DNA from: Candidatus Bathyarchaeota archaeon B24
GTDB lineage: Archaea > Thermoproteota > CALKCG01 > B24
Assembly: GCA_001593865.1 (NCBI GenBank)
Contig: LUCB01000004.1
Location: 26,897 to 90,896 of the forward strand
Length of the DNA: 64,000 bases
Direction of reading: 5' to 3'
The notes below the pieces were generated by a model that did no database searches, had not been told where the DNA came from, and was given only the letters and a program-made list of their open reading frames with translations. Of this stretch, positions 43,790 to 60,731 are shown piece by piece. The translations under genes were made by a program, and so were the position numbers. The first letter of the stretch is position 1. Each line of letters begins with the position of its first letter.

Positions 43790-45253
43790 TTACCCTTTAG
43801 CTACTGCTATCGGCACTAATCTAGCGACTTTTGTAGCTATCCCTACGTTATGGCTTACCTCCGCTACGGCGTCGCAGGGCTTGTAGGCTCCTGAGGCTTC
43901 TTCGCTTAAGACTCTCAAGCTCGCCGCCTCGACTAGGATCCCTCTACGCTCCATATCCCGCTTGATCTCGGAACCTCTCCACTGACGTTTAGCCCTAGCC
44001 CTAGATAGTAATCGCCCAGCTCCGTGCGCCGTAGAACCGAACGTCAGCTCCATAGCTTTCTGGGTTCCGAGTAGAACCCAGCTTGAGTCGGCCATAGAGC
44101 CCGGGAGCAGAACCGGCTGACCTATGTCCCTATATTTCGTAGGTAGCTCCGGTCTACCGGCTGGGAACGCTCTTGTGGCGCCTTTCCTATGCACATAGAC
44201 CTTTCTCTTAGTCCCCTTATCGTCGACTATGTGCTCCTCGAGCTTAGCTATGTTGTGCGCCACGTCGTAGACTAAATGCATACCTAGATCCTCTGGATCC
44301 GTCTTGAAGACGCGGCTGAAGCTCTCTCTGACCCAGTGCATTATCGCCTGCCTGTTGGCGAACGCATAGTTTATACCGCATTTCATAGCCGCGATATAAT
44401 CCTGCGCCTCTCTGCTAGTAGCCGGTGCGCATGCAAGCTCCCTGTCGGGCGGATGAATCCCGTACTTATGCATGGCACGCTCCATAACCCGCAGGTAGTC
44501 GGAGCATATCTGGTGTCCAAACCCCCTAGACCCCGTGTGGATGAGGACCACGACTTGCCCCTCATGCTCTATACCGAAGGTCCTAGCGGCTCTAGGGTCT
44601 TCTATACGGTCCACCACATCTATTTCTAGGAAGTGGTTTCCGGAACCTAACGTGCCTATCTGAGCTGCTCCACGGCTCCTAGCCGTGTTGCTAACCTTAC
44701 TCGGGTCCGCCCCCTCTATACCCCCTCTCTCCTCGCAATAATCTAGGTCTTCATCCCATCCAAGCCCGTGTCTCACGACCCAGCCGGCGCCCTCGACCAT
44801 GAGGTCGTCTATATCCCTGCCTGTGACCCTAAAGTCTTTCCTACGGCTACCTAATCCGCAGGGAACGTTTCTGAAGAGAGTCGCTATAAGTTGCTTGAGA
44901 ACCGGTCTGACATCCTTCTCGCTGAGGTTTGTCCTGACGAGCCTGACACCGCAGTTGATGTCGTAGCCTACTCCGCCTGGGCTTACCACACCGTTCTCCG
45001 CGTCGAAGGCTGCGACTCCGCCTATCGGAAACCCGTAGCCCTCGTGTCCGTCTGGAAGGGTTATACTGTACTTGTATATACCCGGTAACGTAGCTACGTT
45101 AGCGCATTGTATAAGGGTTCTGTCAGACCGCATCTTGGTTAAAAGTTGCTCGCTGGCGAGTACCAGCCCCGGGACTCTCATACCTGACTTGTAGTTCTGG
45201 GGGATACGCCACATATAGCGGTCTATCCTCTGAAGAGGAACTCTTTCACTCAA
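43790..45253 (-). CDS. rtcB: RNA-splicing ligase RtcB (no intein)
   Basis: LPDGHEGYGFPIGGVAAFDAENGVVSPGGVGYDINCGVRLVRTNL; GTLGSGNHFLEI; VLIHTGSRGFGHQI. Confidence 0.97.
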   Translation of the reverse strand: MSERVPLQRIDRYMWRIPQNYKSGMRVPGLVLASEQLLTKMRSDRTLIQCANVATLPGIYKYSITLPDGHEGYGFPIGGVAAFDAENGVVSPGGVGYDINCGVRLVRTNLSEKDVRPVLKQLIATLFRNVPCGLGSRRKDFRVTGRDIDDLMVEGAGWVVRHGLGWDEDLDYCEERGGIEGADPSKVSNTARSRGAAQIGTLGSGNHFLEIDVVDRIEDPRAARTFGIEHEGQVVVLIHTGSRGFGHQICSDYLRVMERAMHKYGIHPPDRELACAPATSREAQDYIAAMKCGINYAFANRQAIMHWVRESFSRVFKTDPEDLGMHLVYDVAHNIAKLEEHIVDDKGTKRKVYVHRKGATRAFPAGRPELPTKYRDIGQPVLLPGSMADSSWVLLGTQKAMELTFGSTAHGAGRLLSRARAKRQWRGSEIKRDMERRGILVEAASLRVLSEEASGAYKPCDAVAEVSHNVGIATKVARLVPIAVAKG

Positions 45254-46418: not shown

Positions 46419-47523
46419 TTACGTACTAGAATGGCTGTCTGAAAGTTTAAGCCGCTGTTTTCTAAGCTTATCTAGGTCCTCGGGTATCCTAAACACCCCA
46501 TACTCCGTTATTATCGCGGATACGAGCTCTGAAGGCGTCACGTCGAAAGCCGGGTTCAAAGCTCTAGCTCCCAGGGGAGCGATCCTACGACCGCATATCT
46601 CTAACACCTCCTCCTCGCTTCTGAACTCTATGACTATGTCTTCCCCCCGTTTAAGCCTAGGGTCTATTGTGGACATCGGAGCTGCGACGTAAAACGGTAT
46701 GTTGTGGTGTTTAGCTAACACGGCGATCGTGTAGGTTCCTATCTTATTAGCCACATCACCGTTAAGCGTTATCCTATCCGCTCCTACGACAACCTTATCT
46801 ACAAGACCCCTAGACATGAGGAAGCCGACCATGCTATCTGTTATGAGCCTAAACTCCACCCCGTCTCTGAGGAGTTCAAAGGCGGTTAACCTCGCGCCTT
46901 GGAGAACAGGTCTAGTCTCTGTAGCATAGACTTTCAACCGCAACCCCCTAGATATCGCAGACCTTATGACTCCAAGGGCTGTACCATAGCCAGTTGTGGC
47001 AAGTGCCCCCGCATTCTGCTGGCGTTTAAAGCCATTTACAGTGCGTGAGCACCCTATCTCCGTCCTCTAACAGCTCCGCTCCATAGTCGCCTATACGCCT
47101 GTTAACCTCATAGTCCTCCTTCCATATGGCTAAGGCCTCTTCGAGTATAAGCTTCTTAGCTTCTTCGACGGTTTCGGCTTCACGCGCTTTCGAGATAACC
47201 CTGTCCAAAGCCCAGAAGAGGTTTACCGCTGTCGGACGGGTGGAGGCTAAAACCCGATATGCCTTTATCAGGTCGTCCATAAGGTCTTTAAGGGTTGTTT
47301 TCTCAGACCGATAGGCTGCGAGGGCGAGGCCGAAGGCCGCTGCAGAGCCTATGGCTGGAGCCCCTCTTATGGCCATGCTCTTTATAGCATCGGCCATCTC
47401 CTCTACGGTTCGTATCTTGAGGAGTTTAAACTCATGAGGTAGTGCTCTCTGGTCTATAGTCACAACCTCTCCGTCTTCCCATTTTATGGTCCTAAACGTG
47501 AAAAAGCTTTCCGTATGCATCAT
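46419..47523 (-). CDS. mtnA: Methylthioribose-1-phosphate isomerase-like (eIF2B family), interrupted by a 22-nt putative BHB intron; ORF-track halves are 47026..47523 and 46419..46943
   Basis: N-half [26 protein letters not shown]...GDRVLTHC; C-half [48 protein letters not shown]...[20 protein letters not shown]. Confidence 0.88.
47014..47035 (-). other. Putative 22-nt archaeal BHB mRNA intron in mtnA (junction ambiguous by up to 2 nt, equivalent 47016-47037)
   Basis: RNA: GUGCUCACGCA-CUGU-AA^A-UGGC-UUUAAAC-GCCA-GCAG-AA^U-GCGGGGGCAC; excision gives CAC UGU AAU GCG GGG GCA = H C N A G A. Confidence 0.75.
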
Positions 47524-47571
47524 AAACCGAATTAGTCTCCAGGATGTCTATAAGCGTTTAGCCGGTTCCCT

Positions 47572-48156
47572 TTGAAAAGATGGATAACGTTTAATTTTAG
47601 GCTTTCCATGTTAAAGGCTTGGATGGATTCAAAGCCTCAGCTTATGACCGGTGTGGCATATCTCGAAGACGGTAGAGTAGTCGTTAGGGATAGGGCTTAC
47701 CGAAGCTTTCTCATCCAAAGGGGCTACGGTTTTAGAGAAGGTAGCCTTCTTATCTTAACGGGTGAGGAGGCGCTTTACCTCCTCAGCGAGAATAAGCTTA
47801 AGCTCCTCGACGAAGAGTGTGAGCTAGGTCTTAAGGAAGCTGCTGACAGGCTTATAGCGGAAGACCCCGACGTATGGGTTAGGTTTCTGATCTATCGCGA
47901 CCTGAGAGACCGGGGTTATGTGGTGCGCAGAGGCTATGGGCTTGGGCTGGATTTCCTACTTTATGAACGTGGAACCTATGGTAAGAAGCCTGCTAAATAC
48001 TTGGTCATAGGAGTTTCAGAGGGTAAGCCCCTGGGGCTCAACGACTTACTCAGAGACCTTAAAACCGCTATAAGCTCTGATAAGGAGCTTATCCTAGCCG
48101 TCGTAGACCGAAGAGGGGATGTAGTCTACTACAGGGTGTCAGCAGGTTTTAGATGA
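47572..48156 (+). CDS. endA: tRNA-splicing endonuclease EndA-family subunit, catalytic His position apparently not conserved
   Basis: FLIYRDLRDRGYVVRRGYGLGLDFLLYERGTYGKKPAKYLVIGV...ELILAVVDRRGDVVYYRV. Confidence 0.85.
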   Translation: MKRWITFNFRLSMLKAWMDSKPQLMTGVAYLEDGRVVVRDRAYRSFLIQRGYGFREGSLLILTGEEALYLLSENKLKLLDEECELGLKEAADRLIAEDPDVWVRFLIYRDLRDRGYVVRRGYGLGLDFLLYERGTYGKKPAKYLVIGVSEGKPLGLNDLLRDLKTAISSDKELILAVVDRRGDVVYYRVSAGFR

Positions 48157-48582
48157 GCTTTCTAGGTTTACTTCCTCTTCAGTTAGAGAGATGCCTACGA
48201 ACTTAACTATCTCGACCCCTTTAACCGTTCTGAGCTTCTCTGAAAGCCTACGCACCTTGTCAGCTTCTCCCCTGACGGCTATGATCTCCAAGCAATCCTT
48301 ATGGCTTAAGTGAATGTGTAGTGTGGAGTTCACAAGCCTGCCGTAGCTGTGCTGTAGGTCTGTCAGTTCCTCCTCTGAACCCTTAATCTTGTGGTTGAAC
48401 ATCACCAGAATGGCTCCTACGCATAAGCCCTCGCCTTTAACCCACCTATACTCTGATAGAAACGTCCGTATGGCGTCTTGAACGGCTTTCGAGCGTTTTC
48501 TATAACCCATCCTTGAGATCGTTTCGTTAAACTCTTTCATCAAGTCCTCTGGAACAGTTACGCTGAACCTAACAGCGCCCAT
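48139..48582 (-). CDS. nikR: NikR-like nickel-responsive RHH regulator
   Basis: MGAVRFSVTVPEDLMKEFNETISRMGYRKRSKAVQDAIRTFL...LQHSYGRLVNSTLHIHLSHKDCLEIIAVRG; start trimmed to MGAVRF because the ORF-track extension overlaps the upstream gene. Confidence 0.9.
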   Translation of the reverse strand: MGAVRFSVTVPEDLMKEFNETISRMGYRKRSKAVQDAIRTFLSEYRWVKGEGLCVGAILVMFNHKIKGSEEELTDLQHSYGRLVNSTLHIHLSHKDCLEIIAVRGEADKVRRLSEKLRTVKGVEIVKFVGISLTEEEVNLESSSKTC

Positions 48583-48610
48583 CACACTATTATAAAACCC
48601 TTTAGGGTTG

Positions 48611-48919
48611 TTAAAAGTTTCCAGGTTTTCCGGTTCTGCAAACGCAGGGTATCGACCCACATCTCGGACATCCCTTACCATACTTCTCATAAGCCGCTTT
48701 CTCTGCATCTATACCCAACAGGTTGCATAGGCTTAGAAGCCACGCAAGCACGTCGGCGACCTCCTCGGCTATGAGCGGTTTACTACCTCTTATAAGCGCC
48801 CTGGCAAGCTCCCCCACCTCAGATACGAGCCAAGCATAGGTTATAGGTACCCCCCTCTCCCTGTCTCTCTCAAAGTATATCGTCCTCATGAGGTTTTGGA
48901 AATCCCTTATACCGACCAT
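48611..48919 (-). CDS. MazG-like nucleotide pyrophosphohydrolase
   Basis: YAWLVSEVGELARALIRG...EEVADVLAWLLSLCNLLGID; C-terminal CPRCGSIPCVC. Confidence 0.87.
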   Translation of the reverse strand: MVGIRDFQNLMRTIYFERDRERGVPITYAWLVSEVGELARALIRGSKPLIAEEVADVLAWLLSLCNLLGIDAEKAAYEKYGKGCPRCGSIPCVCRTGKPGNF

Positions 48920-60478: not shown

Positions 60479-60543
60479 CTTAACGACTTTAGCCCGTTAG
60501 AAGGTGGTGGGGCCGGCCGGATTCGAACCGGCGACCGACGGGT

Positions 60544-60610
60544 TTCACCTAGCGCTCCAGAACCCTCATCATCCCCTGTTTAGGGTCTTACCCTGGTCGC
60601 TCTCCGGCAT
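60544..60610 (-). other. tRNA-Trp intron 2, canonical position 37/38, 67 nt
   Basis: Removal leaves a 7-nt anticodon loop CUCCAGA closed by ACGGG/CCCGU; contains box C-like AUGAUGA. Confidence 0.85.
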
Positions 60611-60619
60611 CTGGAGCCC

Positions 60620-60650
60620 TTAACGAACCCAGCCTTAACCGGCTGGGCTT
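60620..60650 (-). other. tRNA-Trp intron 1, non-canonical position 28/29, 31 nt, BHB
   Basis: GACG[AC^A]AGCCCAGCC(GGUUAA)GGCUGGGUU-CGUU[AA^G]: 4-bp central helix, 3-nt bulges, 9-bp inner helix. Confidence 0.88.
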
Positions 60651-60731
60651 GTCGTCATGCCTGGCTAGACTACGGCCCCCACCGAGATCACAGGTTTTAA
60701 CCAGGCTCTATATTAAAGTTATCCTCCATCG

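Follow-up and report, generated by a model that had tools for sequence, protein, structure and literature searches.

The gene endA-beta, which lies in the 64,000-nucleotide stretch of Candidatus Bathyarchaeota archaeon B24 DNA analyzed here (hereafter the window), very probably encodes the beta, or structural, half of an archaeal RNA-splicing endonuclease of the (alpha-beta)2 type, which would handle both strict and relaxed bulge-helix-bulge (BHB) motifs, a reading to which we assign a probability of roughly 0.94. The definition of (alpha-beta)2 EndA enzymes that we follow, and the broad specificity ascribed to them, are those of PMC6379350. We infer the alpha2-beta2 assembly, as well as the cleavage and ligation steps, from the genes described below. 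In the proposed enzyme, two beta and two alpha subunits would join through conserved strand and L10 contacts, with beta contributing the scaffold, including an acidic L10 loop, and alpha contributing the Tyr/His/Lys triad together with the Arg and Trp residues that would grip the bulge. A Lys-bearing crenarchaeal specificity loop in alpha would permit the cutting of relaxed BHB motifs. The substrates would be tRNA introns with canonical and relaxed BHB motifs and, most likely, the pre-mRNAs of cbf5 and mtnA as well, and the exons would be joined by RtcB after cutting. The features of the window that bear on this proposal are collected in Table 1.

Table 1. Features of the window discussed in the text, with window coordinates, strand and basis of assignment
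Feature	Coordinates	Strand	Basis or remarks
endA-beta, proposed non-catalytic subunit of an (alpha-beta)2 RNA-splicing endonuclease	47572-48156	+	Pfam/NCBIfam; PDB sequence and fold matches; tree
Tyr131 codon (Tyr115 position)	47962-47964	+	alignment; DFLLY; aromatic in 71/71 distinct non-degenerate beta
Pro140 codon (His125 position)	47989-47991	+	alignment; KKPAKYLV; His in 0/71 distinct beta
Lys171 codon (Lys156 position)	48082-48084	+	alignment; SSDKEL; Lys in 32/32 beta of the smaller set, basic in 71/71 distinct beta
mtnA (methylthioribose-1-phosphate isomerase), two ORFs, 47523-47026 and 46943-46419	46419-47523	-	NCBIfam; ORFs; protein search
Predicted BHB intron of mtnA, 22 nt, ATGGCTTTAAACGCCAGCAGAA	47014-47035	-	directly after the Cys codon of THC-NAG
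RNA stem holding the mtnA bulge-helix-bulge motif	47002-47053	-	MFE -23.7 kcal/mol; z -4.25; 0/200 shuffles as good
tRNA-Trp(CCA) gene with two predicted introns	60505-60679	-	ARAGORN with introns allowed
tRNA-Trp intron 1, 31 nt, non-canonical position 28/29 (anticodon stem), relaxed BHB	60620-60650	-	inspection
tRNA-Trp intron 2, 67 nt, at 37/38, box-C-like UGAUGA	60544-60610	-	splicing prediction
RtcB RNA ligase, expected exon joiner	43790-45253	-	PF01139, 4.1e-173; sole copy found in the genome

Identity and reading frame of the EndA-fold protein

Both its domains and its fold place the product of the 194-codon endA-beta frame in the EndA (tRNA-intron endonuclease) family. The Pfam profiles PF01974 (3.9e-23, 81.8 bits against a curated cutoff of 27) and PF02778 (3.9e-11, 42.7 bits against 21) match it well above their thresholds, and the NCBIfam model TIGR00324 endA scores 67.1, exceeding its cutoff of 59.6. 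A single-chain AlphaFold model, built from a 31-sequence alignment, reaches a pLDDT of 88.3 and a pTM of 0.83; its top structural match in the PDB is the EndA of Methanocaldococcus jannaschii (1a79_A; E 1e-16, TM 0.90 on the target), and others include the structural subunit of N. equitans (3if0) and the beta subunit of Aeropyrum pernix (3ajv_A). The Methanopyrus kandleri structure 5X89 is also a strong profile match. In sequence, the protein is closer to the alpha4-type EndA (1a79) than to the solved crenarchaeal beta chains. Among named organisms, the nearest match comes from a Bathyarchaeota MAG, with 49% identity.

Translation probably does not begin at the TTG of 47572, and an ATG at 47608 or 47623 is the likelier start. 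We doubt the TTG because the sister species carries small indels around codons 1-2, because the pLDDT of the model falls below 50 over residues 1-10 and averages ~52 over residues 11-20, and because other members of the family begin near M13 or M18. A start codon also appears to be misplaced on the opposite strand, where a NikR-like ORF (48139-48708) overlaps a 102-aa ORF (48611-48919) that has no NCBIfam match; NikR similarity of the former begins only at residue ~45, and its start has probably been misplaced.

Former catalytic positions and the proposed catalytic partner

Numbered after M. jannaschii EndA, the catalytic residues of the family are Tyr115, His125 and Lys156. The complete Tyr/His/Lys triad of a catalytic alpha subunit is absent from endA-beta, which reads Y/P/K at these positions. 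The earlier note, made from this DNA alone, had proposed that the catalytic His is missing while the Tyr of DFLLY and a downstream Lys are present, and the alignment bears this out: Pro140 occupies the His125 position, Tyr131 and Lys171 fall on the other two, and no other His was found at the catalytic site. A count of the whole protein returns no His among its 194 residues, and there is therefore no substitute His for the site. The note had also given the canonical motif as H-x-x-K-Y-x-V, which proved incorrect; the actual form is H-x-x-[Y/F], e.g., EHSVYLV or DHAPYII, and the Lys of AKYLV is a feature of the beta family that lies outside the canonical EndA motif.

The paralog that such a His-less subunit would need was found elsewhere in the same draft genome (G000; 1.73 Mb in 37 contigs, ~90% complete), which holds exactly two matches to PF01974 and two to PF02778; in a draft of this completeness, a third EndA gene is improbable but conceivable. 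The second EndA gene lies on another contig (G000:C17:12414-12974, L001:1468-2028) and reads DFAVYKKGPGIDHAPYII...RLATTVRKRF, i.e., with the full Y/H/K triad; it is thus the second, His-containing EndA gene for which a search had been suggested. Its product also bears a Trp close to the C-terminus and a segment, YGKPVGISKPK, that matches YGKPIGISKPK in S. tokodaii 2cv8, the Lys-bearing crenarchaeal specificity loop (CSL) associated with broad specificity. With a His-less EndA-like subunit and a catalytic paralog in one genome, endA-beta is best classed, on its sequence, as a beta subunit, and the suggestion of a structural partner in a heteromeric alpha2-beta2 endonuclease gains support. EndA was found in 41 of the 41 genomes searched, and two EndA matches in 34 of them.

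Comparison across these genomes separates the two kinds of subunit. In a tree of 74 proteins, all 35 alpha sequences form one side of a branch labelled 99* and every beta falls outside it, so placing endA-beta on the beta side of the split. The deep forks inside the beta part are too weakly supported to place endA-beta among the beta subgroups or to decide whether the beta subunits had a single origin. The triad is intact in 35/35 alpha sequences, and a loose specificity-loop pattern matches the same 35. A C-terminal Trp is present in 34/35 alpha versus 2/32 beta, L10 position 168 is acidic in 32/32 beta, and the position equivalent to the bulge-recognizing Arg149 of alpha is variable in the 32-sequence beta set.

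Our beta alignment comprised 32 non-degenerate sequences and 50 further matches, with 11 genomes represented in both, for a total of 71 distinct sequences. The confirmed absence of His from endA-beta is not the unusual trait that it had been taken for, as His is missing from the site in all 71; nearly all of these relatives have Pro, Ala, Gly or Thr in its place, and loss of the His is the rule in this family. What was unexpected is that all 71 retain an aromatic and basic pair at the other two catalytic positions, with Tyr (61), Phe (8) or Trp (2) at position 115 and Lys (68) or Arg (3) at position 156. Of the 176 columns in the alignment of the 32-sequence set, 11 are invariant, K171 among them, with the Tyr column at rank 23. 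With two of its three catalytic residues kept, endA-beta is less degenerate than the textbook beta subunits.

Retention of Tyr and Lys, along with the closest likeness being to an alpha4 EndA, might be read as a sign that endA-beta is itself an active homo-oligomeric EndA in which another general acid replaces His. We regard this as highly improbable, given the second, intact EndA gene in the genome, the lack of any His in the protein and the identity of the residues found at the site in nearly all relatives, none of which can serve as an acid. That one catalytic residue is gone could also mark the gene as a decaying duplicate or pseudogene, a notion with a negligible chance of being correct in view of the orthologs present in many families, the 11 invariant columns, the confidently modelled fold and a sister-species protein that is 89% identical and encoded in an unbroken frame.

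A more substantial alternative, albeit still an unlikely one, is that beta is a pseudoenzyme in which the kept pair still works, e.g., by holding a phosphate of the RNA or by cleaving slowly with no need of His, and that beta so contributes to the choice of substrate beyond acting as scaffold. Its appeal lies in the persistence of the pair in every one of the distinct beta sequences, set beside crenarchaeal-type beta subunits and the A. fulgidus N-terminal repeat, in which the pair is lost and the fold retained. Six highly diverged beta-like subunits (families f5, f8, f10, f17 and f20) have likewise lost all three catalytic positions, and the EndA fold therefore does not need them. On the other side, the equivalent of the bulge-gripping Arg149 is not conserved in beta, and the beta sites of EndA-fold tetramers should point away from the scissile bonds. 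Furthermore, the two beta sequences with Trp at position 115 have Arg in place of Lys, a joint change that fits a stacking pair better than a working one and suggests such a pair, albeit weakly because both sequences come from one family. Most likely, then, the aromatic and basic residues of beta form a structural stacking pair that is a remnant of the old active site.

Predicted introns and the expected exon-joining ligase

The earlier note had pointed out that the heteromeric architecture is associated in the literature with relaxed-BHB, non-canonical tRNA and mRNA introns and had reported both kinds in the window; both are present there as sequence features, at 60505-60679 and 47035-47014, respectively. 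The latter interrupts mtnA, the divergent neighbor of endA-beta, whose two ORFs join only when 47035-47014 is removed. A BHB or relaxed BHB motif spans the junctions and removal of the insert restores the frame; in the MFE fold, one extra base pair beside the 3' bulge gives bulges of 3 nt and 2 nt, which is near-canonical. The Cys that precedes the insert is presumably the active-site Cys of MtnA, as judged from the bacterial enzyme. The gene is split in 4/4 genomes of family f1, and a split at that site is absent in 16 of 17 genomes outside the family, the remaining one having no match. G000 and G001 carry an insert of 22 nt, G002 and G003 one of 19 nt; the frame is disrupted in every case, and the same stem-bulge fold recurs across the inserts (z -4.25 to -4.82, with 0/200 shuffles as stable). 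We rejected an error of sequencing or assembly because four genomes share the insertion site and the RNA fold while the insert comes in two lengths, and programmed frameshifting is unlikely, given an in-frame stop in the insert and the added residues that it would place inside the active-site motif. The insert in the mtnA pre-mRNA is thus most likely an archaeal BHB mRNA intron that this endonuclease would remove.

The two genes are adjacent (window 47524-47623 and orthologous loci) in ten compared genomes from several families (G000, G001, G005, G006, G007, G008, G010, G013, G016 and G019). Were the beta pair functional, the mtnA intron might tie MtnA production to splicing-endonuclease activity and so create a regulatory link between splicing and methionine salvage, an idea that we hold to be quite improbable.

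No tRNA was detected in the window by ARAGORN with default settings or by Rfam at gathering thresholds; the tRNA-Trp gene emerged once introns were allowed. ARAGORN labelled 60505-60679 as tRNA-Ser(GGA), which is wrong, since splicing out both introns leaves a 77-nt molecule that the same program calls tRNA-Trp(CCA). By inspection, intron 1 has the helix GACG/CGUU flanked by the bulges AC^A and AA^G, and a strong intronic helix; no clear outer exon helix was seen, and the motif is therefore a relaxed one. Intron 2 possibly encodes a C/D guide RNA, its UGAUGA resembling that of known guide-RNA introns. Of 44 tRNA genes that we located in the genome, nine or ten appear to bear introns, which outside tRNA-Trp mostly sit near 37/38. 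Another ARAGORN call, 'tRNA-Pyl' at G000:C3 (L131), is not pyrrolysine and is better read as tRNA-Gln(CTG) with an intron.

A second protein-coding gene of G000 seems to be interrupted in the same manner. Its cbf5 (G000:C36:28945-29918, L188) is split after GHGGTL, and taking out 17 nt restores LDPPATGVLP; the insert folds less stably than that of mtnA (z -2.0). A split of cbf5 at about the same residue recurs in roughly a dozen relatives, which belong to many families. The cbf5 pre-mRNA introns of Crenarchaeota are short and BHB-like, 16-44 nt in length, and associated with heterotetrameric EndA (PMC2738675). Such introns may extend well beyond the Crenarchaeota of that 2009 survey. The mtnA insert is likewise a short BHB-like element in a protein-coding gene and differs in its host gene. 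In one relative, the Cbf5 frame (G007:C11:292017-294374, minus strand) contains an intein-like in-frame insert of ~1.6 kb at residue 169, giving an open frame of 797 aa, in addition to an intron-like split near residue 67.

The neighborhood of the window's RtcB gene is common to the sister species only, among the genomes checked. RtcB genes in three other genomes (G002:C46, G012:C12 and G020:C9) have open frames of ~985-1002 aa in which the profile begins at 46-49, which suggests inteins.

Likeness to known enzymes and significance

The proposed enzyme resembles those of A. pernix (3P1Z/3AJV) and Pyrobaculum aerophilum (2ZYZ), in which a catalytic alpha subunit with Y/H/K and the specificity loop is combined with a His-less beta. 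Non-canonical tRNA introns occur in the hosts of such enzymes, and A. pernix has a cbf5 intron as well. Unlike the P. aerophilum beta, endA-beta has a full N-terminal domain, and its Tyr and Lys positions are intact where the highly diverged beta subunits sampled have lost theirs. The (alpha-beta)2 EndA of M. kandleri (5X89) is a heterotetramer with a His-less EndA-like subunit, as is proposed here. The M. kandleri enzyme lacks the specificity loop (PMC6379350), and its EndA-like half lacks the Tyr and Lys positions, unlike endA-beta. The alpha4 EndA of M. jannaschii (1A79) shares the fold of endA-beta but is encoded by a single gene with a full triad in each subunit.

In itself, endA-beta is an ordinary protein, a subunit of a known kind, and the greater novelty lies with the predicted intron in mtnA. 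According to PMC7714728 (2020), the only other archaeal BHB mRNA intron, besides that paper's own 5'-UTR case in Haloferax, is that of cbf5. Our search of the literature, the scope of which excluded many subscription papers, found no report of an intron in mtnA, and it is apparently undescribed; if spliced as predicted, it would be a rare example of a protein-coding archaeal BHB intron. The pair of genes described here documents a candidate (alpha-beta)2 splicing endonuclease from a part of the phylum that has received little study. Its beta subunit, in which two of the three residues of the former active site persist, is informative about how a catalytic subunit may have given rise to a structural one.
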